NCBI GenBank assembly: GCA_026712925.1
Contig: JAPOPJ010000271.1
Coordinates: forward strand, 1-38,390
Origin: Nitrososphaerota archaeon
GTDB lineage: Archaea; Thermoproteota; Nitrososphaeria; Nitrososphaerales; Nitrosopumilaceae
DNA length: 38,390 bases
Direction: 5' to 3'
The translations under genes were made by a program, and so were the position numbers. Shown piece after piece: positions 7,249 to 34,263 of this stretch (positions within the stretch are counted from its first letter, which is position 1; each line of letters opens with the position of its first letter). The notes below the pieces were generated by a model. That model saw only the letters and a list, made by a program, of their open reading frames with translations, was not told the origin of the DNA and searched no databases.

Positions 7249-7462
7249 TTTTTCCAAAACTCGGAGCTTGGGTGGACAAAAGGTGTCAAGGGGTTTATTG
7301 TATAGATAATATCAAACACAGCAAGAGTGGTCGCATACTACACATCAAAATCCATTTTGACATCGATGAAGAATCCAAAACACGACAAATTTACTACTCG
7401 TGATGAATATGCCCACATCAGAGGTTAAAATCAGTAAAATGCTGAGTTTATGGAAGGATCTT
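7249..7462 (+). repeat. Dispersed element copy A, upstream of PIN module 1
   Basis: The left end CCAAAACTCGGAGCTTGG matches the left end at 31387-31405 (CTCAAATTCGGAGATTGG). The core shares 'CAAACACAG.AAGAG', 'CATACTA', 'CCATTTTGA' and 'AATCCAAAA' with the copy at 31374-31594. The right end GAGTTTATGGAAGGATC corresponds to that copy's right terminal repeat. The alignment was made by eye and the copies are diverged. Confidence 0.65.
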
Positions 7463-7503
7463 TTTTTCATGCAATTAATATACATCCTTATGTTAGAATT
7501 AGC

Positions 7504-8040
7504 ATGTCATCAATCACATTACTAGATGAAATTACAAATAGAATAAACACCATGAATGCAGAGAATGTGATAGATGTCACTATATGTAATAGTCTAACCG
7601 AATTAAATGAAAAAATGATAGAAATTGATAAAAAGTGGTTAAAAATCGATCATGAAAACAGTTTTAGATTCTTTTGTGGAGTAGGAGCTGTTGAATTACT
7701 TCTTGAACAAATGATAGAACGATTTCAGATCGAAGGAAAACAAAATGATTTGCAGATTGTACGGGACTCTTCAGATGTGATTCCGCTTGCATGTGAGATC
7801 ATTCAACTTGCAGAACAGTATAACCCAGATGATAATCTAGCTGAGCAAATATCAGAAAAAAGACTTCAATTACGCGACTTGGTAAGGGAAAAAAACTTGT
7901 TAGAACCTGTTGAGCGAAATCTGCGTGACATTGACAAAAAATTCCTTGGAGAGGTGTTTGATAAAATGTTGGAAAATATTGGAGCTCCAAGAGAAATACC
8001 TACAAATGTGAGTGTTGATGAGATTAAAAATACTTCTTGA
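7504..8040 (+). CDS. Helical partner of PIN-like nuclease, copy 1
   Basis: The family is not recognised. The protein is soluble and almost all helical, with a conserved core 'GAVELLLEQMIERFQIE', then 'VIPLA.EIIQLAEQYNPDD' and a charged helix 'ISEKRLQLRDLVREKNLLE'. It ends in 'NVSVDEIKNTS' and overlaps the PIN gene by 23 nt, so translation is probably coupled. I chose ATG 7504 over ATG 7450: a TTAATATAC box lies about 25 bp before 7504 in all three copies, the 7450 start falls inside the dispersed element, and base changes between copies upstream of 7504 are not codon-like. By position it resembles an antitoxin or immunity partner, but this is inferred from gene order only. Confidence 0.75.
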   Translation: MSSITLLDEITNRINTMNAENVIDVTICNSLTELNEKMIEIDKKWLKIDHENSFRFFCGVGAVELLLEQMIERFQIEGKQNDLQIVRDSSDVIPLACEIIQLAEQYNPDDNLAEQISEKRLQLRDLVREKNLLEPVERNLRDIDKKFLGEVFDKMLENIGAPREIPTNVSVDEIKNTS

Positions 8041-8857
8041 TTCTACCATTATGATTGCCGCAAGTATTTACAACACTCGTGATAAGACAGGCTTGGTAGA
8101 AAATAGATCAGATGCAACAGATCTGATTAACGAATTAAAAAAACACGTAAATGAAAAAATAGGAATAACAACGCAAACACTATATGCTGAGTCTATGAAT
8201 GCAGTTGAAAAAGGAATAAATGATGCCATGCCTAAAACATTATCTAATTTTGACAGAGTGAAAACTCTACGACAGTCAATAAATGTATGTGAAGATGAAG
8301 TTTATAGACTTTCCAAGTACTTGTATCAATATACCTCTGAATATCTAAAAGGGAAAGAACTACAAGACGCAAAAGATGAAATTGAAAAACTGTCAAAATA
8401 CATCAAAGTAAGACATGAAACAGTGTACAAAGATGAGAATAGTCAACGTAAGGAAGCTGAGCGTAGAGCCAATCTTGAAATCAAACAACAACAGAATAAA
8501 CAATTGTGGTATGTTCTTTTTAAAAAGTATCTAGAACAGATACGGATAGAATCAAAACAAGTTAAAAAATTTGTGAGTAAAGAACCAAATGCTAAAAAAT
8601 TTGACAGTAAAAAATCAAAAGATGGAAATTCAGGAGACAAACGCATACTGGCAGAATCTGCCGCAATCAAACACAAACATGAGAAAAACAAAGAACCCAT
8701 CGATTTTTACATTGCATCGTATGATACTGGATTTTTCTCAGCGCAAATAGTAAATGGTAAGAAATCAGATGTAGTGACAAAAGAAATAAAGAAAAGATTT
8801 GGAATAGTTTGTGAACACCCAAGAGAAATTATACGACAGTGTTTTTCTGATAGATAA
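8018..8857 (+). CDS. PIN-like nuclease with long helical insert, copy 1
   Basis: PIN domains are Mg-dependent RNases common as VapC-type toxins. The pattern fits: an N-terminal strand with the first acid (KILLDSTI, D8), an acidic residue after the second strand (TQTLYAES, E58), then near the C-terminus GDKRILAES (D207) and FYIASYDTGFF (D236), followed by 'RFGIVCEHPREI'. Between E58 and D207 lies a charged, coiled-coil-like insert of ~140 residues, making the protein 279 aa instead of the usual ~130-150. ATG 8018 is preferred to GTG 8012. It overlaps its partner gene by 23 nt. The PIN call is by motif and needs structure prediction to confirm. Confidence 0.7.
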   Translation: MRLKILLDSTIMIAASIYNTRDKTGLVENRSDATDLINELKKHVNEKIGITTQTLYAESMNAVEKGINDAMPKTLSNFDRVKTLRQSINVCEDEVYRLSKYLYQYTSEYLKGKELQDAKDEIEKLSKYIKVRHETVYKDENSQRKEAERRANLEIKQQQNKQLWYVLFKKYLEQIRIESKQVKKFVSKEPNAKKFDSKKSKDGNSGDKRILAESAAIKHKHEKNKEPIDFYIASYDTGFFSAQIVNGKKSDVVTKEIKKRFGIVCEHPREIIRQCFSDR

Positions 8858-10724: not shown

Positions 10725-10889
10725 TTTTTTGCCATACTGTAACAAAGCAATAGCAACCAACTACCCCCACATCACAAAATGCATTTTAGAGATGATGTGT
10801 AATCATAAGTGCCTAAAATTTGTCATAAAAGACAGACATGTTAAGGTCAAAGAGCCAGATTAACAAAAGCAAAGAGTTGTGGAAGAATC
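10725..10889 (+). repeat. Dispersed element copy E, upstream of PIN module 3
   Basis: Close to copy D throughout ('CATACTGTAACAA', 'CAACTACCCCCACATCACAAAATGCATT', then CATAAAAGACAGACATG) and ending AAAGAGTTGTGGAAGAATC, the decayed right terminal repeat. Compared with copy D it lacks one base near the 3' end, which breaks the frame that in copy D could be read from 9053. It starts with a T-run likely to terminate module 2. Confidence 0.55.
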
Positions 10890-10932
10890 TTTTTTTCATG
10901 CAATTAATATACTACCTAATGCTAGAATTACC

Positions 10933-11469
10933 ATGTCATCAATAACATTACTAGATGAAATTACAGATAGAATAAACACAATGGATACTGAGGGCATGAT
11001 AGATGCCACAATATGTAATAGTCTAACCAAGTTAATCGAAAAAATGATAAAAATTAAAAAAAAGTGGTTAACAGTCAATCATGAAAATAATTTTGATTTC
11101 TTTTGTGCAGTAGGAGCTGTGGAATTACTTCTTGAGCAAATGATAGAGCGGTTTCAAATTGAAGCAAAATACAATAATTTGCAAATTGTATTGGACTCTT
11201 CAGATGTGATTCCGTTGGCACGTGAGATCATTCAAATTGCAGAACAGTATAATCCAGATGATGATCTAGCTGAGCATATATCAGAAAAAAGACTTCAATT
11301 ACGCGACTTGGCAAGGGAGAAAAATTTGTTAGAACCTGTTGAGCGAAATTTGCGTGATATTGACAAAAAATTTCTTGGAGAGGTATTTGACAAAATGTTG
11401 GAAAATATTGGAGCACCAAGAGAAATACCTACAAATGTGAGTGTTAATGAGGTTAAAAATACTTCTTGA
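10933..11469 (+). CDS. Helical partner of PIN-like nuclease, copy 3
   Basis: Paralogue of the genes at 7504 and 9149, with the same helical core and a C-terminal end nearly identical to copy 1 (EPVERNLRDIDKKFLGEVFD). ATG 10933 has TTAATATAC about 26 bp upstream. A GTG at 10879 would add 18 residues, but in exactly this stretch copy 3 differs from copy 1 by several replacement changes in a row and no silent ones, as expected for noncoding DNA. It overlaps the PIN gene by 23 nt. Confidence 0.73.
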   Translation: MSSITLLDEITDRINTMDTEGMIDATICNSLTKLIEKMIKIKKKWLTVNHENNFDFFCAVGAVELLLEQMIERFQIEAKYNNLQIVLDSSDVIPLAREIIQIAEQYNPDDDLAEHISEKRLQLRDLAREKNLLEPVERNLRDIDKKFLGEVFDKMLENIGAPREIPTNVSVNEVKNTS

Positions 11470-12286
11470 TTCCACCATTATTATCGCCGCAAGTATTTAC
11501 AACACTCGTGAAAAGACAGGCTTGGTAGAAAATAGATCAGGTGCAACAGACCTCATTAATGAATTAATAAAACATGTAAATGAAAAAATAGGAATAACAA
11601 CGCAAACACTATATGCTGAGTCTATGAATGGATTGAAAAAAGGTATAAAAAATGCCATGCCTAAAACATTATCTGCATATGATGAAACAAATACTCTAGA
11701 ACGTTCAATAAATGTATGTGAGGATGAAGTATATAGACTTTCCATGTACTTGTTTCAATATACCTCTGAATATCTAAAAGGGAAAGAACTACAAGACGCA
11801 AAAGTTGAAATTGAAAAACTATCAAAATATATCAAAGTAAGACATGAAACTATGTACAAAGATGATGATAGTCAACGTAAGGAAGCTGAGCGTAGAACCA
11901 AGATTGAAATCAAACAACAACAGAATAAAGGATCATGGAAAGTTATTTTTGAAAAGTATCGAGAACAAGTACGAATAGAATCAAAACAAGTTAAAAAATT
12001 TATGAGTAAAGAACCAAATGCTAAAAAGTTAGATGGTAAAAAATCAAATGATGGAAATTCAGGAGACAAACGCATACTAACAGAATCTGCAGCAATCAAA
12101 TACAAGCTTGAGAAAAACAAAGAACCAATTGATTTTTACATTGCATCGTATGATACTGGGTTTTTCTCACCACAATTAGTAAATGGTAAAAAATCAGATG
12201 TGGTGACAAAAGAAATAAAGAAACGATTCGGAATAATTTGTGACCACCCAGGAGAAATTATACGACAGTGTTTTTCTGATAGATAA
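11447..12286 (+). CDS. PIN-like nuclease with long helical insert, copy 3
   Basis: Intact paralogue of copy 1 (279 aa) with all four candidate acidic positions: LLDSTI, TLYAES, GDKRILTES and YDTGFFS. Most differences from copy 1 lie in the helical insert ('MPKTLSAYDETNTLERS'). Retention of the acids in two of three copies suggests that catalytic function has been maintained. The ATG at 11447 is preferred over GTG 11441. The 3' flank, ending in a T-rich stretch near 12366, is shared with the other modules. Confidence 0.7.
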   Translation: MRLKILLDSTIIIAASIYNTREKTGLVENRSGATDLINELIKHVNEKIGITTQTLYAESMNGLKKGIKNAMPKTLSAYDETNTLERSINVCEDEVYRLSMYLFQYTSEYLKGKELQDAKVEIEKLSKYIKVRHETMYKDDDSQRKEAERRTKIEIKQQQNKGSWKVIFEKYREQVRIESKQVKKFMSKEPNAKKLDGKKSNDGNSGDKRILTESAAIKYKLEKNKEPIDFYIASYDTGFFSPQLVNGKKSDVVTKEIKKRFGIICDHPGEIIRQCFSDR

Positions 12287-16097: not shown

Positions 16098-16800
16098 TAT
16101 GATATAATGGTATAATGATATAATGAACCGGTCACTACCAGAAAACACTATCGGGTATCAGCAGAATGTGGCATCTTTTTCACCAAACTTTGGTTTTTAA
16201 AATATCAAAGTCTTACCAATACCAGATTTTCCAGAGATGTGTTATTAGATTATATGACTAGATGAGATAACCTTTTAGATTATTTTACATTTCATGATAT
16301 AGGATTTGTTTTGGTTTTGAGATAGAACAGATTGAGTTCCTAAAATGATATAATGGTGAATTTATAGTGTGTAACTTTCTGACATCCTAGATTGTTTGAA
16401 ATGCATTAATTCCTATATGTAAAGGGATTCTAGCCACAAACCCAGCAAGATGTGCTAGATTAATCATTCCAGTATTACAAAATTTAGAGGTATTACTCGC
16501 AAACCACTCCCAACACACACAATATCACTCCCAGATACACTCCAAAATACACACTCCAAAATACACTCCCAACACACACAATATCACTCCCAGATACACA
16601 CTTCCATGCATACACTCCCAGGATACACACTACAGACAAAAAGCATAGCATACAGGATACCATTTCCCAAAGTCATGACTTTACAGGCATGTGCTGAACA
16701 CATGACGCTGTAATGTGTGGCTATGACACAGTTCTACAATGTACAGCTACGAGGTCAACTTGTAAATCTAAATATATCACAGTACACGTTATTTCCACAA
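16098..16800. other. Intergenic stretch with direct repeats, no gene recognised
   Basis: About 700 bp with no supported gene. The right half (16500-16640) is low complexity, rich in ACTCCCA and ATACAC words, and contains the 36-bp direct repeat at 16504 and 16564. A frame upstream of the kinase start (from 16717) is open but has no promoter. Confidence 0.55.
16504..16599. repeat. 36-bp direct repeat, two copies 60 bp apart
   Basis: The same 36 bases, starting CACTCCCAACACACAC and ending CCCAGATACAC, occur at 16504-16539 and 16564-16599. Between them lies related low-complexity sequence (CTCCAAAATACACA twice). This looks like local duplication. Confidence 0.85.
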
Positions 16801-18309
16801 ATGGAAAAGCACAACGGTGAAAACCAGATCAAGCACCCAAGGTTAAAAAAGATGGTGCCTGAGCTTCGCCGCACCATAAACATGGACGGCATAATTATAG
16901 ACTGCAACGAATACTATGCCGATAAGATTGGTCAGTCAATTGATGAGATAATAGGATTGCATGCAGATGAGCATACCCCGCCAGATGACAGGGAAAAATT
17001 CCACGAGGAATTTGAATATTGGAAGAAGACAAAGACCGGAAAAAAGATTTTAATAAACATCATGGCAAAAGACGGAACAATTATGGAAATGATATCATCT
17101 ATCAAGAGCCACATCGGTGAGGATGGTGAATTGACTGGTAGAACAGCAATCATGATGGACCTCAATGAATTAAAAGAGTTCCAAAAAATAGTGATGCTTA
17201 GAAAATTTGAGAGTCTTTATGAGAACTCGCCGGATCTTTACAGAACAGTCAATTATAATGGCACCATTGTAGATTGCAACAAAGCATATCTCAGGGAGCT
17301 TGGCTATGATAGTAAAGAAGATGTAGTTGGCATGAATCTGCTTGAGCACACATCTGAAAAAAGTATAGACATTATGCGAATAAACATGGCTAACTGGCGA
17401 AACACAGGCGCTGGAAAGACATCTGAAATTTGGATGAAGCGAAGAGACGGAACAGAGTTTCCATCCATCCTTACACCAACTAACATACATGACAAAGATG
17501 GTAACTTGATTGGCAGGAATGTAGTGATAAAAGATGCCACAAGTATGTACGAAACAAAACAAATGCTAAGTGAGCAGAAAAAAATAGACAGGATGAAAGA
17601 AGAATTTCTCTCAGTAGTGACGCATGAGTTAAAGTCACCCCTTACACCAATCATTGGGTTTGCTCAAGCCCTTACTAGGCCCAAGATGCTAGGCGAATTA
17701 AATGAAAAACAAAACGATGCAGTAATAACTATACTATCTAACGCAACTAGACTCAGAAAACTCATAGGAGATATGTTAGATGCACACAAGCTAGAGCTGA
17801 AAAAAATGAGGTTTGACCTCAAGGAAATGTCTGTAAATGACCTAATGAGTCACATAGATAAATCATTCCAGCTGACGGCAAAGGAAAAAGGTGTATCTAT
17901 ACACTGTAATGTAAAAGGAAATGATGAAATCATGATTACTAGTGATAGAGATAGAGTAGAGCAGGTAATTACAAACCTGACATATAACGCGATAGACTTT
18001 ATACCAAAAGATACAGGAACCGTGACAGTTACTGCCGAATATGTTGGCTCTGAGGTGCAGTTCTCAGTTGTAGATAACGGTATAGGCATACCGCCAGAAA
18101 AGCAAAAAGAGTTGTTTAAAAAATTCTACCAAGCCAATACATCACATGATAGAAAGCACGGCGGGACCGGACTAGGACTCTCAATTTGTAAGGGGATAGT
18201 AGAGGGTCTAGGAGGCAAGATAGGTGTTGAAAGTACCGAGAATGTGGGAAGCAACTTTTATTTTATACTGCCTGTGAAAAGAGGCGATAATGAGAGTTCT
18301 CCAGATTGA
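16801..18309 (+). CDS. PAS-PAS sensor histidine kinase
   Basis: A soluble kinase with no membrane segment. Two PAS domains (around residues 25-130 and 140-260) are followed by HisKA with the H-box 'SVVTHELKSPLTPIIGF' (phosphorylated His near residue 275). The HATPase domain has an N-box in 'NLTYNAIDF', G1 'DNGIGIP' and G2 'GGTGLGLSI'. It would sense a cytoplasmic signal and phosphorylate a partner, most likely the receiver protein whose gene overlaps its end by 20 nt. ATG 16801 is chosen because TAAATATAT is centred ~27 bp upstream (leaderless). An earlier ATG at 16723 adds 26 residues without a promoter. Confidence 0.9.
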   Translation: MEKHNGENQIKHPRLKKMVPELRRTINMDGIIIDCNEYYADKIGQSIDEIIGLHADEHTPPDDREKFHEEFEYWKKTKTGKKILINIMAKDGTIMEMISSIKSHIGEDGELTGRTAIMMDLNELKEFQKIVMLRKFESLYENSPDLYRTVNYNGTIVDCNKAYLRELGYDSKEDVVGMNLLEHTSEKSIDIMRINMANWRNTGAGKTSEIWMKRRDGTEFPSILTPTNIHDKDGNLIGRNVVIKDATSMYETKQMLSEQKKIDRMKEEFLSVVTHELKSPLTPIIGFAQALTRPKMLGELNEKQNDAVITILSNATRLRKLIGDMLDAHKLELKKMRFDLKEMSVNDLMSHIDKSFQLTAKEKGVSIHCNVKGNDEIMITSDRDRVEQVITNLTYNAIDFIPKDTGTVTVTAEYVGSEVQFSVVDNGIGIPPEKQKELFKKFYQANTSHDRKHGGTGLGLSICKGIVEGLGGKIGVESTENVGSNFYFILPVKRGDNESSPD

Positions 18310-19868: not shown

Positions 19869-21035
19869 TCAACTCTCAGGTATTTTAAACCATTTTCGTG
19901 GCATGAATCGTTTTACCAGCAATGCTGTTCCAGTCAAGTATATCATTATACCCACAGGCTCTATCCAGTTTTGGCTCCCATTCCCAGGTGTGATTCCCAG
20001 AGCTGGCTCTACTACAAAAAGAAATATTGAACCTGCCATGAGTGGAGCCATCCCTACAAAGAAGAGCATGAGTGTGCCAGTATCCCTTATGGCAATTAAC
20101 AGATCCCTGTATGTGCCGTGCGGCTTTTTCCACTTGCCAGGGCCAAGCCAGACTTGCATCCCACCAACATACCAATATACCATCCCTTGTAATATCATGG
20201 CTCCAATAATATTACCTAGTGTTACTGGGACTAAGTTGTTAAACCATGCCTCGCCCCAAGTATAGTCTCCACCTGCCCATATCCCTGCAGCTAGTGCAAA
20301 GTGATTCACTATACTATGCTCAAAGCCAATGGCAAAAAAGACCGACACTGGAATCCCAATTAACAAGATTTTTGAGAAAATCTCCTTTGTTCTGTATGCA
20401 CCCCATACACCCATGGCAATAAGCCAATTTGCAAATATTCCACGATAAAATAGCTGATCCCATGTCAGCTCATTTACTTTTTTCTCACCAATCCCTGCAA
20501 GTATTCCCATGAGATCTGAGCCGACAGGCCCTGCTTGTCCTGCGCCTATAATTATCATCCACCCAATGACAAAGCCTGCCATCCAGTGTCCAGAGTGTGT
20601 GATGGACCACTCCCACAGTACCTCGCGCCATCTAGACCTCTGTGTCATCATGGCAATTCCAGCAGTCATATAATCACCTGTCACCAAGTTTGAGCCATAC
20701 AATATTACCAAAACGAGTGCAGAAAAGCCAAAAACTGCAAATGCAAGAAACTGACCTAATCCATATGACAAGTCCGTTGCTACAGAGAACATTATCATCC
20801 AAGCAAGGAACGCCGCAAATGCAAGGTATGCAGTTGCCTGCCAGCCCATAATGAGCCCCTGTGCAGGATTTACCTTTGTTTTTTCAACACCCAGACTACT
20901 TAGTGTTTTTATGGTATCAGATATTCCAAAAAGCTTTGTAGTCATGCGTGGCGGGGATTCGTCCTCATCCTGCCCGGACAGAGTATCTTTGTCTGTCTTG
21001 TCTTGTTCAGATGGTGTATCAGTATTGTCACTCAA
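19869..21035 (-). CDS. Formate/nitrite transporter (FNT) family channel
   Basis: FNT proteins are pentameric channels for small monovalent anions (formate, nitrite, hydrosulfide). The 388 residues show 'YGSNLVTGDYMT', 'FYRGIFANWLIAMGVWGAYR', the pore motif 'IGFEHSIVNHF' with its central His, and 'NLVPVTLGNIIGAMI', with six membrane helices. Two oddities are a hydrophilic N-terminal extension of ~55 residues and long loops near the C-terminus (GGMQVWLGPGKWKKPHG). In an ammonia oxidiser nitrite is the likely substrate; this is inferred from physiology. The start is TTG 21035, about 6 nt after a start site predicted from TAATATAG at 21064-21071. Confidence 0.9.
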   Translation of the reverse strand: MSDNTDTPSEQDKTDKDTLSGQDEDESPPRMTTKLFGISDTIKTLSSLGVEKTKVNPAQGLIMGWQATAYLAFAAFLAWMIMFSVATDLSYGLGQFLAFAVFGFSALVLVILYGSNLVTGDYMTAGIAMMTQRSRWREVLWEWSITHSGHWMAGFVIGWMIIIGAGQAGPVGSDLMGILAGIGEKKVNELTWDQLFYRGIFANWLIAMGVWGAYRTKEIFSKILLIGIPVSVFFAIGFEHSIVNHFALAAGIWAGGDYTWGEAWFNNLVPVTLGNIIGAMILQGMVYWYVGGMQVWLGPGKWKKPHGTYRDLLIAIRDTGTLMLFFVGMAPLMAGSIFLFVVEPALGITPGNGSQNWIEPVGIMIYLTGTALLVKRFMPRKWFKIPES

Positions 21036-23815: not shown

Positions 23816-26800
23816 TCATGGTACAGGTGCAGGTACAAACCCAGTACCAGGCACATATGTTCCGTAGCGCTCCCATCCAGACTCGCCGATTATCCATATA
23901 GCATAGCTTGCTTCTGCTGCATCACCTGCGGCATTAAGTGAAATGTTTCCTATTGCGCCACTATATTGTGATGTAATCATTGGTATCTGCCTCTTTACAT
24001 CCTCAAAGCCAGCATCACCAGTAGCCTCAATGGCTAGGCCGAGAATCTGCACACTATCATAAGAAGCATAGGCATACACATTGGGATTGCCTTCAATTCT
24101 AGGATCCTCTGAAAAGCGCGTATTTAGTTCTGTGTACATCGGACTAGTATCATCAACATCAAATATCCGCTCCCTGAATTTTGTATTCTTTAGAAACTCT
24201 AGCACTACTTCATTATTCACTAACACCTCACTTTGAACATTAGCATCAGAGCCTATCCACTGTACACTGTGCAGTATTTCATGAGCGGCTGCTTTTTCCA
24301 TAAAGACCTCAGTCTCACCAATTCCCACATACATTACAGCAATTTTCTCACTTCCATGTTCATTTACAAGCAGTTCTATTTTATCTGCCAAAGTTGCAGT
24401 CATTTCCTCAAACATTGAATCATAACAGTCAGGTATATCACATAGTGGATAACTTTCAAAGTCATCTACCATACCACCCATACTCTCAAATGATGCAGCA
24501 GTACTATTACGCAGTCCATTACCAAACGCATCATCCCTCCACACAGGAACAAGTACACTAATCCCATCATCAGTGAGTAGCTGTGCTGCCACTACACCTT
24601 GCAGAGAATCATCAGGGGCAAGGCGGAATACATTATCTCCTTCATTTGCAATGCTAGGTGCAGTAGAACAGCAGCTGAGAAGTAGCATGTTATTTGCATT
24701 AAGATAGTCTTTAATTTGTGCAATACCACCGCTAGCAGATGGACCAGTGATGTACCTAATTCCATCATCATTAAATGACCTAACAGGCTCTACATACCCC
24801 TCAGATGCAGTATCAGCAACCTGAATATCTAGCCTCCATGTTGCATTTTTTTCACTCAAATATTCATTAAAGTCATTTACTGCATACTCTGCGGCTACAT
24901 TTCTGTGAACTCCTGCACCGTCTGCCCTAGTTACTGGGATTAGACCACCAATCTCAACTATTTCTACCCATGCCCCGTCAATTATTCTCCACACGGCATA
25001 CTGGCCATCTGCACGGTCACCGGCACTATTTAAAACCGTATTTCCTGATGCCCCTACATACTTTGCAGACACATCAGACAGAGAGGCCTTGACATCACTT
25101 ACATCAGTACTCTGTGCATCTAAAATGGAGAGTCCTAGGAGCCACACCACATCATACTCAAAGCTAGTATAGACACTTGGTGCCCTGTAAAATTGTACAT
25201 TATCCTCAAAGTGTTTTGCAATCTGTTGTGTAATTACATTGTCATGGACTCGTGGTTGTACAGATACCAGCCCTACACGCTCTGCAAATTCAAGCGCAGT
25301 TTCATTATCAGTTATGTTCGGATATGCAGTATTTACATCTGCACTATACCACTTTACACCATTTAATACATCATGCTTGCTTGCCTCGACTAGAAAATCA
25401 GCATTACGCTCAAACCCAACATACAGCACTGCAACATTCCCAGCACCATTGTCAATCATTTGCTGTACTGCATCTGCAAGGGTAGCAACAGGTCCTTCAA
25501 GGTCATCATTATAACTAATCACACCTCCCATTATATTCCCATCAGACATACTCTCAAAAGAGGTACCAGTCAATTCCAGCAAGTCATTTACCCAAATATT
25601 CTCAAGCCCCACAGGAACAAATGCACTGATATCATCACTATTCATGACATCAGCTAGTTTTTCAGCGTGCTGTGCATGTCCTGGTGCAAGTCTAAACATT
25701 GCATCATTATCAATTGCAAATGGCGTAGTAACACTACAACAGCTCAACAAGAGCATGTCATTTTCATTTGCATATCTGAGTAATGCAGTATCATAGTCTA
25801 TTGCATTCCCATCAATAATCTTGATGTTTGAATTATTTAGTGCAGTGAGTTCCTCTAGTGCAACAGCAGGATTAGTTTGGGAGTCACGCCTATCCACTGA
25901 AAGTGACCATCCTGCATCAAGGCTTTCCAGATAATCATTAAAATCATTTACTGCAAGTATTGAGGCGGCATTTATCTCCTCACCATACTTTGTCGCACCA
26001 CCAGATAATGGTGCTAGTGCACCTATTGATATTTCACCCTCAAGGGAAGTCCTTTCTGCTGCAAGATAGTTCCAGTGGCCCGGACTTAGTGGATATGACG
26101 GATCATCAAATGCCCTCACTACAAGGCGCATCTCAGGGATATACTCATCAAGGTAGAATGGTCCATTGCTTATCACGGCTGTACCCTTTTCTGTAATCCA
26201 GTTAATTGATGCGGCATATCTCGTGTCAACATCTGTCATATCATCATACACACCGGCAGGTATCATTCCATCAGACATCATCCCTAGTGCATTCTTTATC
26301 AAGGCGACATCCATATCATCTAACATAGAAATCCACGAGACATCATTACTCACTGCAACAGAATTTGAAAATGCGGCATCACCATTTAGCACCACGGCCT
26401 CCATTGCAGCTTGCACCTCCCATGGTATGCTACTCCAAAGCAGTGCACGAGATGCAATTTCAGATTCATCAAAGTGCCAATAATCCACATACACATCTAT
26501 TGTATCATCATCAATTACGCGTATTCCCTTTATCAGAGGATTTGCACCTGCTGCTAATTCGGGATCATACTTTGCCACATCATCGGGGTTTGAGCTAGAC
26601 TTTGTAATCCATTCTCTATATAGGTATGTAGGATACATCACATCATTAATGTCCATTGGTATTCCATTATGCCACTTGCTAAATTTCAAATCAACTCTAA
26701 CCTTACTAATTGACTCTGTACCCTGTGGTAATGTTGTCCACTCTTGGTTTGCCGCATCCCACATGACAGCATCATCATGGAGTGTAATCATACCATCAGG

Positions 26801-29800
26801 ACCATTGGTATCTACAGACCATGCAACCCTTACTGGTGTCAAGTCACCTGTAAATGGATCCCTCACGGCAGCTGGATCGCGTAATATATTCCAAGTATAT
26901 GTGCTATATGTGTCTGTAAATCCTGAAACTGTATTCCATGGACTCTGTCGGATGTATTTTACCCCGACTACTAAATCATCATCACCGGCATTTGCATTAA
27001 TTAATGTGGCTCTGTTTGTAATTCCTTGGCCTTGTGCATTTACCACGCCTCCAATACCTTCCACTGCAACGTATTGGTCATTTTCATATCCAAGAAATAT
27101 CCTTACAGATTCTTGTACACCCGCCAAGACTGCCTCTCGGACTAGATTTGCTCTCTCAGCGTTATTGGAGTACTCTTCATTGTATATCCTCATAGTAGTC
27201 TCATCCAAAAATTCATTTTCATAGTTCCAATAATTAGGGTTGTTCAGCCCCGGCATAAATGAACCCCATGGTGCATAATATGTTGCAATGCTGGTATTAT
27301 CATATTTGGTTACTGTAGGTCCGCCAAATGCTCCAGTGTAAATGTGCCAATCAAGGTTTGCAGGGTTTGAACCATACACCACATTAAACGCATCATTAAG
27401 ATTTCCATTAATTATATCCACTGCAAATCCTAAACTGACAAGCTCTTCAGCAAGAGAGTTTCCAATTGCATCTCTAATGGAATCATCATTGCGTATGAAC
27501 ATTTTAACAGTTATCTGTGTATCATCCATCAACCATTTTCCATCATACTTTGTAGCTCCATTTTCTTCAAGAACATCGCTTATCATCATGTCTGCCATAT
27601 TTACATCATATCTGATTCCAAGGTTTTCAATGTCTTTATACACTAAAAGATAGTCATTGTGCGTGGGCCCAAATACAGATAGCATGATATTGCCATGCCC
27701 TCGGAAATGCTCACGTACTATTTCTTCCCGGTCAACTAGAAAATTAATAGCATAACGCATCTCTTGGAATGCAAATGGGTTGAACTGATCATCAACATCA
27801 GCAGGGTTTAGAAATAAATCATAAGTTACACCACCTATAGACTCAAATCCCTGCACACCTTCAGGCAAGCCATCTTCTGTTTGGTCACGCGGTATGGGGT
27901 AATAGTACATGTCAAATGAACCATCTTGTACCTCAGATAGTGCAGTTGTCTCATCATTATACTCAATGAATGTTATCACATCTACATTGGTGCCACGATC
28001 AGAGGCAGGCAATATTGGTGCTAGGCCAATCATCATTGTATATGTGGAATCAAATGACGTGCCAGAAATGATTAGTGCACCTGGTACTTTTACACCATTA
28101 GGGTATGTGTGGATTGGTGATGTTGCTTCATAGCCAGCTGGTAATACCACCTGTGCAAGAAAGTCTGCTGGAACCAAGTCTGCCCTAGTTGCCACACCAT
28201 TTGCATCAGTGAATATGCTGGAAAGTGGACCAATTGTATATGTGTATGCAGTTATCTCTATTTCTGGAAATGGTTTCTCATTATCATCCATTATACCATT
28301 TCTATTATTATCATAAAATGTAGTGACATCAAGTGTGATTAGCTCGTCTGCCGGTACGGGATAAAATCCAATATTAAATTCACTAGCAGTATAATCATCA
28401 AGTGCTTCATACGTGTACCATTTCTCTGAGGATAAAATGGTACCAGGAGGATAGTACGAGGACTGGACTAGTATCAATCCAGGTGGCATCTCAAAGAACT
28501 GGGTATATTTGCCATCAGGTGTGGTGATTAGTTCTGTAAATGTTCCAGTTGAGAAATTAAAAGTAATTATTTTGTGATTTGCAATTCCTAGCTCACCTGC
28601 ATCCATATTGCCATTATTATTAACATCTGAAAATATTGTACCAGATAGAATAGTACCATTTAGCATCATGAGGTGAAGTACATCAGTGCCGGTGGAATCC
28701 TCTGATACCTCAGGGCCAGGTGCACCTGCTGCTAAATCTGGTATGCCATCCATGTTAATATCACCGACAATTGCAACAGAAGAGCCAAACAAGTCCACGC
28801 CGCCAAGATTCGGACCATTTGGAGTATCTGCATTAATTTCAAAAGTGTTTTTTATTGCACCATTACTCTCAAGGTATAAAACATACAAGTCACCTGTTCC
28901 TACACTTTGTGTGTGATGTCCTGGAGCACCTACAACAATATCAGGTGTACCGTTCCCATCAATATCTCCTAGTGATGCAACTGATTCTCCAAATAAATCA
29001 CCCTTTACAAGGGAATTAGGACCGTTTGGAGTTTCAGAGTTTATGTCTATTGTATTTAGGATTGCCACGTTTTCATCAAATAAAATGACATACACATCAC
29101 CAGTAGTGTTGCCGCGGTCATGATACCCCGGCGCGCCTACAACCATATCTGGTGTACCATTCCCATCTACATCACCAGCAGCTGCAACTGAAGCACCAAA
29201 CCTGTTGCTGATTTCTAGAAATGGCCCTTTAGGAGTATCGGCATTTATCTCAACTGTTCTGATTATACTGCCATCCGCATTAAGGAGTAATACGTAAACA
29301 TCACCAGATGCTATACCTCCTACATGATGTCCAGGTGCACCTACTGCAATATCTGCTGTGCCATTCCCATCCATATCACCAATATTTGCAACAGATGTGC
29401 CAAACAAGTCACCAGTTTGAAGTGATTCGGGCCCATTTGGAGTCTCAGAGTTTATCTCCATAGTTTTCAGAACAGTACCGCCATTTCCAAGTAGTATGAT
29501 GTATACAGTACCAGTATTTTGAGTATGGGTAGGATGTCCTGGTGCACCTACTGCAATATCAGGTATGCCATTCCCATCCATATCCCCAATATTTGCAATG
29601 GATGTACCAAACAAAGAGTATGGTCCAAGTGAGTCAGGACCGTTTGGAGTGCCAAGGGCTATCTCGATTATACCACCATCTAGTATAGCTCCATCTACAT
29701 CAAGCATCATTAGATAGATATCACCTATTCCAATTGTCTTGTCTTGGTGTCCCGGAGCTCCTACTGCAATATCAGGTATGCCATCCCCGTTAATATCACC

Positions 29801-30055
29801 TATTGGTGCAACAGATGAACCAAACAAATCATGCTCACCAACTGATGGACTGTGTATTTCAATTGAATTTTTTATCATAATATCTGCAAAAGACTCTGAT
29901 GTGGCAGGAATAGCCATAGCCACCACTGCAAAAACCACACAAATTGGTATTAGTATGTTGTTTTTCACCAACAATCCCCAGTATGGTACCAATTTTACTA
30001 GTATTAATTTCAATCCATGATCGCAGTTTTTTCTAGCAGGGTCCTCGCCAAACAC
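23816..30055 (-). CDS. Giant secreted multi-sensor protein: FG-GAP / SdrD-like / SBP_5 / two Peripla_BP_6
   Basis: About 2,079 residues. An N-terminal hydrophobic segment (NNILIPICVVFAVVAMAIP, cleavage near 'SESFA') is followed by six FG-GAP repeats of type 'LFGxSVAxxGDxDGNGxPDIAVGAPGH' (residues ~77-460, integrin-like propeller with Ca-binding DxDGNG loops). Next are two Cna-B/SdrD-like segments ('DVNNNGNMDAGE', 'DNNRNGIMDDNE', ~465-690) and an SBP_bac_5 peptide-binding region (~690-1330). Two Peripla_BP_6-type domains follow (~1345-1700 and ~1705-2065), each with 'MLLLSCCS'. There is no C-terminal anchor. GTG 29968 (MKNNILIP) would give a cleaner signal peptide than ATG 30055. It is probably a cell-surface nutrient receptor, but no ABC permease or ATPase gene is nearby, so uptake partners are unknown. 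Confidence 0.88.
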   Translation of the reverse strand: MFGEDPARKNCDHGLKLILVKLVPYWGLLVKNNILIPICVVFAVVAMAIPATSESFADIMIKNSIEIHSPSVGEHDLFGSSVAPIGDINGDGIPDIAVGAPGHQDKTIGIGDIYLMMLDVDGAILDGGIIEIALGTPNGPDSLGPYSLFGTSIANIGDMDGNGIPDIAVGAPGHPTHTQNTGTVYIILLGNGGTVLKTMEINSETPNGPESLQTGDLFGTSVANIGDMDGNGTADIAVGAPGHHVGGIASGDVYVLLLNADGSIIRTVEINADTPKGPFLEISNRFGASVAAAGDVDGNGTPDMVVGAPGYHDRGNTTGDVYVILFDENVAILNTIDINSETPNGPNSLVKGDLFGESVASLGDIDGNGTPDIVVGAPGHHTQSVGTGDLYVLYLESNGAIKNTFEINADTPNGPNLGGVDLFGSSVAIVGDINMDGIPDLAAGAPGPEVSEDSTGTDVLHLMMLNGTILSGTIFSDVNNNGNMDAGELGIANHKIITFNFSTGTFTELITTPDGKYTQFFEMPPGLILVQSSYYPPGTILSSEKWYTYEALDDYTASEFNIGFYPVPADELITLDVTTFYDNNRNGIMDDNEKPFPEIEITAYTYTIGPLSSIFTDANGVATRADLVPADFLAQVVLPAGYEATSPIHTYPNGVKVPGALIISGTSFDSTYTMMIGLAPILPASDRGTNVDVITFIEYNDETTALSEVQDGSFDMYYYPIPRDQTEDGLPEGVQGFESIGGVTYDLFLNPADVDDQFNPFAFQEMRYAINFLVDREEIVREHFRGHGNIMLSVFGPTHNDYLLVYKDIENLGIRYDVNMADMMISDVLEENGATKYDGKWLMDDTQITVKMFIRNDDSIRDAIGNSLAEELVSLGFAVDIINGNLNDAFNVVYGSNPANLDWHIYTGAFGGPTVTKYDNTSIATYYAPWGSFMPGLNNPNYWNYENEFLDETTMRIYNEEYSNNAERANLVREAVLAGVQESVRIFLGYENDQYVAVEGIGGVVNAQGQGITNRATLINANAGDDDLVVGVKYIRQSPWNTVSGFTDTYSTYTWNILRDPAAVRDPFTGDLTPVRVAWSVDTNGPDGMITLHDDAVMWDAANQEWTTLPQGTESISKVRVDLKFSKWHNGIPMDINDVMYPTYLYREWITKSSSNPDDVAKYDPELAAGANPLIKGIRVIDDDTIDVYVDYWHFDESEIASRALLWSSIPWEVQAAMEAVVLNGDAAFSNSVAVSNDVSWISMLDDMDVALIKNALGMMSDGMIPAGVYDDMTDVDTRYAASINWITEKGTAVISNGPFYLDEYIPEMRLVVRAFDDPSYPLSPGHWNYLAAERTSLEGEISIGALAPLSGGATKYGEEINAASILAVNDFNDYLESLDAGWSLSVDRRDSQTNPAVALEELTALNNSNIKIIDGNAIDYDTALLRYANENDMLLLSCCSVTTPFAIDNDAMFRLAPGHAQHAEKLADVMNSDDISAFVPVGLENIWVNDLLELTGTSFESMSDGNIMGGVISYNDDLEGPVATLADAVQQMIDNGAGNVAVLYVGFERNADFLVEASKHDVLNGVKWYSADVNTAYPNITDNETALEFAERVGLVSVQPRVHDNVITQQIAKHFEDNVQFYRAPSVYTSFEYDVVWLLGLSILDAQSTDVSDVKASLSDVSAKYVGASGNTVLNSAGDRADGQYAVWRIIDGAWVEIVEIGGLIPVTRADGAGVHRNVAAEYAVNDFNEYLSEKNATWRLDIQVADTASEGYVEPVRSFNDDGIRYITGPSASGGIAQIKDYLNANNMLLLSCCSTAPSIANEGDNVFRLAPDDSLQGVVAAQLLTDDGISVLVPVWRDDAFGNGLRNSTAASFESMGGMVDDFESYPLCDIPDCYDSMFEEMTATLADKIELLVNEHGSEKIAVMYVGIGETEVFMEKAAAHEILHSVQWIGSDANVQSEVLVNNEVVLEFLKNTKFRERIFDVDDTSPMYTELNTRFSEDPRIEGNPNVYAYASYDSVQILGLAIEATGDAGFEDVKRQIPMITSQYSGAIGNISLNAAGDAAEASYAIWIIGESGWERYGTYVPGTGFVPAPVP

Positions 30056-30140: not shown

Positions 30141-30644
30141 TCAAGTTAGATAAAGACTGATTGCCTGCTCTATTTCAGAGTACTCTGTATCAGACTTGGC
30201 AAGGCACTTGACTTCATCCCAGTTGATTTTGTGACTACAGCAAACAGCCAATCTTTGTAGGTCTTCAATGTCCTGATCGCGACCTGCCCTATACTTTGCA
30301 ATAATTAGGCCCTCCAAAGAGATGGTATTAACGGTGGTTCCTTTCTTGTCTACGGGAATTGCTGTTGCAGTCCTTATGATGTAATCAAGCGGAATCCCAT
30401 TTAGGTTCCGCTCATGATATACATCAACTTTGTAGTTTCTGGGTGTAAATTTTTTGCCTTGCAGGTCTATTTTGTACCCCTTGTCCAAAAACTCATCAAC
30501 TGTAATCTGTTTGGCAACAACAAAATCTAAATCCTGAGATTGTCGTTGCTCACCAGTATGCAACATAACTGCAACTGCCCCCACAAACGTGACATCTCCA
30601 AGATCCTGAGAAATGCACACTGCTTCTTTAATTAACGGTTTCAC
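30141..30644 (-). CDS. AbiEii-like nucleotidyltransferase (toxin candidate)
   Basis: The 167-residue protein has the minimal nucleotidyltransferase pattern: 'FVGAVAVMLHTGEQRQSQDLDFVV' (G...V, then RxSxDLDF with the two metal-binding acids), a later Asp-containing strand 'YKVDVYHERNLNG', and a helix 'LEGLIIAKYRAGRDQDIEDLQRL' typical of AbiEii/MenT-type proteins. It overlaps the upstream helix-turn-helix gene by 17 nt. In type IV-like systems the NTase is the toxin and the upstream gene the antitoxin and autoregulator. The call rests on motifs; activity on tRNA or other targets is not known. Confidence 0.75.
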   Translation of the reverse strand: MKPLIKEAVCISQDLGDVTFVGAVAVMLHTGEQRQSQDLDFVVAKQITVDEFLDKGYKIDLQGKKFTPRNYKVDVYHERNLNGIPLDYIIRTATAIPVDKKGTTVNTISLEGLIIAKYRAGRDQDIEDLQRLAVCCSHKINWDEVKCLAKSDTEYSEIEQAISLYLT

Positions 30645-33582: not shown

Positions 33583-34263
33583 TTAAACCTTGATTTTCTT
33601 TTTTTGTTTTACTGAACCATCAGGATTGTATGTAATTGTAGATATTAGATTGCCATCTGTATCATACAAATTCTGTTTCGTTTTAGAACCATCAGGATTG
33701 TATCTAGTCTCAGATTTTATATTATCATCTTTATCGTACAATCTTTGTTTCGTTTTAGAACCGTCAGGGTTGTATGTAGTCTCAGATTTTACATTATTAT
33801 TTTCATAATACTCGTACAAATCCTGCGTCATGGAACCATCAGAGTTGAAAGTAATCTCAGATTTTACATTACCATCATCATAATACTCGTACAAATACCG
33901 CTTCTCTATTGAACCATCAGGATTGTATCTAGTCTCAGATTTTAAATTATCATCCTCATAATACTCGTAAAAATCTTGCACTTTAGAACCATCAGAGTTG
34001 TAAAAAGTCTCAGATTTTAAATTATCATCCTCATAATACTCGTAAAAAACCTGCTCCTTAGAACCATCAGGATTGTAGTAAATCTCAGATTTTGGATTGT
34101 TGTCTTCATAATAGTCTAACAAATCCTCTAACCCTTTAGAACTATCAGTGTATGTAGTTTTTGATTTTAACTTGTCATATTCATCGTATATTTCCAACTT
34201 TACTATTGAACCATCAGAGTTATCATAGATCTTTAGTTTATCATTGTTGTTTTTCTTTGACAA
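33583..34263 (-). CDS. MORN_2 / YwqK-like repeat protein
   Basis: The 226 residues consist of about nine imperfect repeats of 20-24 residues with the pattern 'YYEDDNLKSETFYNSDGSKVQDF', i.e. (Y)-D-x-G/D-N-hydrophobic-KSET-x-YN-x-DGS. This matches the MORN_2/YwqK type, which forms stacked beta hairpins. YwqK has been labelled an antitoxin component in databases, but evidence for that is thin. No signal peptide or membrane helix. The start is TTG 34263, with a TATA-like TTTTTAATATC about 30 bp upstream. The neighbours do not indicate a role. Confidence 0.75.
   Translation of the reverse strand: MSKKNNNDKLKIYDNSDGSIVKLEIYDEYDKLKSKTTYTDSSKGLEDLLDYYEDNNPKSEIYYNPDGSKEQVFYEYYEDDNLKSETFYNSDGSKVQDFYEYYEDDNLKSETRYNPDGSIEKRYLYEYYDDGNVKSEITFNSDGSMTQDLYEYYENNNVKSETTYNPDGSKTKQRLYDKDDNIKSETRYNPDGSKTKQNLYDTDGNLISTITYNPDGSVKQKKKIKV

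Follow-up and report, generated by a model that had tools for sequence, protein, structure and literature searches.

How animal-associated ammonia-oxidising archaea obtain organic nitrogen is still an open question, for which published genomes suggest Liv transporters and exported proteases. A single gene from a Nitrososphaerota archaeon of the family Nitrosopumilaceae bears on this question, because its architecture links the Liv system with the exported proteases. Here we ask what this protein is, from which parts it was assembled, and what it may do at the cell surface. The gene lies on contig JAPOPJ010000271.1, and by "the window" we mean the whole stretch of 38,390 nucleotides that was analysed. 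Reference positions of the peptide-binding protein are those of PDB entry 7fi3, which we take to be OppA of Thermococcus kodakarensis. The features of the locus are as follows.

23816–30055, minus strand: whole fusion gene, unbroken over 2,079 codons when counted from the first GTG; seven Pfam families score above cut-off.
29885–29968, minus strand: Sec signal peptide VKNNILIPICVVFAVVAMAIPATSESFA, its probable start codon being the GTG at 29968; sequence and alignment with the paralogue C209.
28646–29884, minus strand: six FG-GAP repeats (residues 58–470), each with a DxDGNG-type loop, beta-propeller-like; Pfam and paralogues of the same layout.
28013–28645, minus strand: two SdrD_B / Cna-B-like modules (residues 471–681); Pfam and paralogues.
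27986–28012, minus strand: fusion joint (residues 682–690); paralogue alignment.
26957–27985, minus strand: C-terminal half of the permuted OppA-type module (residues 691–1033, about 321–723 of T. kodakarensis OppA); profile and sequence matches.
26051–26956, minus strand: N-terminal half of the same module (residues 1034–1335, T. kodakarensis OppA 18–310); profile and sequence matches.
24956–26050, minus strand: LivK-type module 1 (residues 1336–1700), of the OppA-LivK fusion clade; Pfam, motif and tree.
23819–24955, minus strand: LivK-type module 2 (residues 1701–2079), without a C-terminal membrane anchor; Pfam and motif.

The frame around the gene is open for 2,102 codons without an internal stop. 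From the N-terminus its product has a signal peptide, followed by six FG-GAP repeats, then two SdrD_B modules, one SBP_bac_5 (OppA-type) module and lastly two Peripla_BP_6 (LivK-type) modules. All Pfam scores of the protein exceed the curated cut-offs: FG-GAP (4.4e-42, six stretches), SdrD_B (2.3e-12, two stretches), SBP_bac_5 (1.9e-20), ANF_receptor (5.7e-40) and Peripla_BP_6 (3.3e-24), the last two with two stretches each. The domain list and order given in a preliminary description of this DNA were recovered in full by these searches, both substrate-binding families included. That description also proposed a secreted protein of about 2,079 residues, a length that needs revision. Translated from the GTG at 29968, the fusion protein aligns with the signal peptide of the paralogue C209 and with the first mature residues of the latter (...AHA/DIQIKDVIEI), cleavage of the fusion protein being read as VKNNILIPICVVFAVVAMAIPATSESFA/D. 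This downstream GTG is the likely start and gives a protein of about 2,050 residues. The C-terminal end reads YVPGTGFVPAPVP and carries no membrane helix. GC content (0.39–0.43) and codon-position GC are alike in all modules, and there is thus no sign of a chimeric contig.

The peptide-binding module proved to be present as described, though not as one linear domain, since the C-terminal half comes first and the N-terminal half second, the reverse of the canonical order in family 5 of the substrate-binding proteins (SBP). Residues 690–914 match positions 147–350 of the SBP_bac_5 profile, whose positions 28–139 match further downstream, and in a single-sequence search the first part of the module corresponds to OppA (7fi3) 331–601 and the second to 22–309. 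A family profile built from 17 homologues aligned with the same OppA at an E-value of 4.5e-92 in swapped order, pairing profile positions 349–641 with OppA 18–310, 4–251 with 321–592, and 277–337 with 663–723, the third block being weak on its own. About 12 residues remain to link the old OppA termini and about 10 where the chain is opened, the new termini falling between OppA 310 and 321, within the linker that connects the halves. The C-terminal half exceeds the Pfam cut-off; the N-terminal half alone scores below it, yet reaches 1.9e-46 against OppA with the family profile. The alternative of two unrelated, incomplete SBP domains is rejected because the halves are complementary, do not overlap and between them account for almost the whole of T. 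kodakarensis OppA, and also because their order is kept across many genomes. On these alignments the module is a circular permutant of SBP family 5. T. kodakarensis OppA (family 5, cluster C) aligns nearly full length with both halves and differs from the module in that the latter has its halves swapped and sits, without an anchor, inside a multi-receptor protein. We found no mention of circular permutation in this protein class in the open-access papers searched.

The permutation is not peculiar to the fusion gene, for single-receptor homologues in many genomes show the same order. A permuted OppA-type module is present in 50 of 61 relatives. A scan of named genomes, restricted to those outside the near kin of the window's genome, gave 364 relatives, the best 80 of the 364 coming from genera that include Nitrosopumilus, Nitrosarchaeum and Nitrosotalea. 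Of 151 genomes from across the phylum, 114 have a match to the permuted profile, in many cases continuous over its entire length in frames of about 800–1,000 residues, while in G106 and G178 the halves stand in the canonical order. By these comparisons the permutation is inherited: single-receptor permuted homologues occur in almost every genome of the Nitrosopumilaceae and across the Thermoproteota, and the module belongs by homology to a core family of ammonia-oxidising archaea that is also widespread in the phylum. A permutation of this kind bears on the folding, docking and annotation of such proteins.

The usual standalone form has about 820 residues, with a signal peptide, an Ig-like region and a C-terminal membrane helix. 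In ammonia-oxidising archaea it shares the swapped order and 43–47% identity with the fusion module; it differs in retaining the membrane anchor and the conserved columns and, in some cases, in adjoining dppBC-type genes. These permease genes directly follow the standalone homologue in some relatives (e.g., L062, L064, L069 and L070). The window's genome also encodes a standalone permuted copy (on C320), which deviates at 1 of 165 otherwise near-invariant columns, whereas the fusion module deviates at 30 of 165. The conserved YTEGW reads YTGAF in the fusion protein, and with so many changed columns peptide binding or permease docking may have been lost.

Both LivK-type modules score above the Peripla_BP_6 cut-off, with ANF_receptor as their top Pfam match. 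Proteins joining the OppA-type and LivK-type parts occur in four other genomes as well (G032, G297, G301 and G315, in frames of about 1,100–1,180 residues), which makes five genomes in three genera with that of the window. These four resemble the window protein in falling into the same clade in both halves, and differ in having one LivK module only and no FG-GAP/SdrD part. In the trees the fusion members form a single clade both in the OppA part (support 100/98) and in the LivK part (100/100); such matching clades imply that the OppA-LivK fusion most simply arose once, and we read this part as an old clade of single origin. The preliminary description had called for a search for the same architecture in relatives; the full form was found in the window's genome only, one of 250 family genomes, and the OppA-LivK part in the five genomes named. 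The SdrD-OppA and LivK1-LivK2 joints are each known from a single metagenome-type assembly of 330 contigs.

In the clade of module 1, G(P/N)(A/V)ID stands in place of the usual LivK motif GPxxS, whereas module 2 retains the usual GPSASG and SCCST motifs. The Ser and Ser/Thr of the amino-acid site, as placed solely by alignment with 3ipc, are accordingly kept in module 2 and replaced in module 1, for which a search of the PDB gave no match. The replacement motif is conserved rather than decayed, which suggests that the module 1 clade binds another ligand than the usual LivK.

Among 293 sampled frames, from regions partly picked for containing these proteins, Cys-Arg is the commonest last dipeptide, with ten cases (G297, G301 and G315; L273–L278, L283, L290 and L301). 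Nine of the ten open with a signal-peptide-like start, the tenth being truncated there. They include all five OppA-LivK fusions of these three genomes and a 2,060-residue protein with many FG-GAP repeats (L278, G301:C56). This ending may be a C-terminal sorting signal.

The N-terminal half has close relatives in the same genome, which encodes two intact single-gene FG-GAP-SdrD paralogues, C209 (669 residues, 68% identity) and C312 (646 residues, 59%). Like the fusion protein, both start with a signal peptide and continue with six FG-GAP repeats and two SdrD modules; they differ from it in ending where it enters the receptor half. The paralogues finish in STYTMMIGL(S/A)PVQ*, while the fusion gene reads STYTMMIGLAP-ILPASDRG and continues as the mature N-terminus of the OppA module; the sequence spanning this joint is STYTMMIGLAPILPASDR. 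The FG-GAP repeats resemble those of the integrin alpha propeller, which has seven blades against the six repeats here, and between the signal peptide and repeat 1 there is no space for a seventh. The B-like modules resemble those of staphylococcal SdrD. An LPxTG-type adhesin was considered and rejected: the fusion protein sequence contains no LPxTG sorting signal, and the full-length MSCRAMM_SdrD model gives 21.1 bits against a cut-off of 2,500. Elsewhere in this genome the SdrD module is mostly a C-terminal tail, found on subtilases, on propeller-LivK proteins (C65 twice, C140 and C77) and on FG-GAP proteins. The subtilases (C111, C319 and C259; L177, L178 and L181; about 1,100–1,340 residues) carry it C-terminally, as the FG-GAP proteins do.

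The absence of permease and ATPase genes from the surroundings, pointed out in the preliminary description, holds for the 20 main ORFs of the window (all but the smallest), so that no local ABC operon was found; yet permeases of the cognate types are encoded elsewhere in the genome, dppBC-like genes on C155 and livFGHM-like genes on C16. All five OppA-LivK fusion genomes have LivHM permeases, and the genomes of the family sample that encode LivHM permeases are largely those that have Peripla_BP_6 proteins as well. According to published work, LivFGHMK is typical of sponge-associated thaumarchaea and nearly absent from free-living ones (PMC7848895, PMC6790972), and sponge thaumarchaea are credited with tandem LivK domains and expanded exported subtilisin-like proteases (PMC6790972, PMC7848895, PMC6697440). 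Ca. Nitrosospongia ianthellae has three consecutive LivK domains in one protein, repeated as they are here, and the available description mentions no OppA-type or FG-GAP/SdrD part in that protein (PMC6790972). The tandem-LivK sponge thaumarchaea and the window's genome both belong to LivHM-bearing lineages. In a 1,690-residue frame (L226, in G022) the LivK module occurs four times, three of the copies having identical sequences. The window's genome carries LivHM, which is reported as typical of sponge-associated thaumarchaea, and we infer that it derives from a sponge-associated archaeon. The LivHM permeases found with the fusion clade are a reported hallmark of sponge thaumarchaea (PMC7848895, PMC6790972), and therefore a mixotrophic symbiont fits better than a free-living organism sustained by ammonia and CO2 alone.

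These comparisons show a stepwise origin. The OppA module of the fusion protein is a duplicate of the standalone, anchored permuted protein; in lineages that also have LivHM permeases such a duplicate, without the anchor, most simply became fused once to a LivK-type receptor; and here the two-receptor protein bears a second LivK, while a whole FG-GAP-SdrD protein is attached in front of its mature N-terminus. The FG-GAP/SdrD part may then set the protein in the surface layer, alongside the SdrD-tailed subtilases, where the permuted OppA and LivK modules would capture released peptides and amino acids. These would be handed to the Dpp and Liv permeases, which are encoded separately, or kept at the surface. 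We give about even credence to the gene product being a secreted, anchorless cell-surface capture receptor built by stepwise gene fusion. Its best reading is as part of a digest-and-capture system of a sponge-symbiont-type archaeon, in which peptides and amino acids are probably captured at the cell surface. The multi-ligand capture suggested at the outset survives, with changes, as the best reading, in line with binding modules that fall in clades descending from transporter-type binding proteins and with the signal peptides of the paralogues of the adhesion-type half. Against it stand the lack of a nearby permease gene and of an anchor, the 30 changed OppA columns, and a LivK module 1 without the usual serine motif.

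The main rival to capture is an adhesin or recognition receptor, its binding modules re-used for host or neighbour molecules with no role in transport. This would suit the integrin-like FG-GAP and SdrD parts, the lack of an anchor, the pocket residues altered in the OppA module and LivK module 1, and the restriction of the receptor half to LivHM-bearing lineages, a type reported from sponges (PMC7848895). We nevertheless hold it to be rather unlikely: module 2 retains the usual motifs, the own conserved motif of the module 1 clade suggests a maintained small-molecule pocket, and FG-GAP and SdrD modules by themselves do not demonstrate adhesion. It is improbable that the gene is a recent readthrough fusion or a misassembly without selected function, its parts working as before. 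Such an event would account for an architecture seen in one of 250 genomes and for a joint placed exactly where the paralogue ends and the mature OppA module begins, but the long open frame, the uniform composition and the old OppA-LivK clade argue otherwise, and an assembly error would be unlikely to remove a stop and a signal peptide so precisely in frame. A sensor role, with ligand binding relayed to the cell in the manner of ANF_receptor-type or chemotaxis systems, seems very improbable. ANF_receptor as the top Pfam hit for both LivK modules and a PAS-histidine kinase gene at 16717–18309 point that way; the protein has no transmembrane or cytoplasmic part, however, and the kinase gene lies about 5.5 kb off on the opposite strand without a shown link. 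Returning to the capture receptor, we propose tentatively, and with some doubt, that the permuted OppA-LivK proteins are a distinct receptor class of sponge-type archaea with a new LivK pocket motif, docked here through FG-GAP-SdrD, a module common to exported subtilases, to form part of a single surface apparatus for digesting protein and capturing the products.

Some other genes of the window may be recorded. The minus strand, which holds the fusion gene, carries immediately upstream of it a gene for a DUF6036/AbiEii-like nucleotidyltransferase (30141–30644), and elsewhere one for a MORN_2-repeat protein (33583–34263) and one of the formate/nitrite transporter family (19869–21035). Two ORF pairs of equal lengths (196 and 281 residues) and the same arrangement lie at 7450–8857, where no Pfam match was obtained, and at 10879–12286; they are probably a duplicated element.
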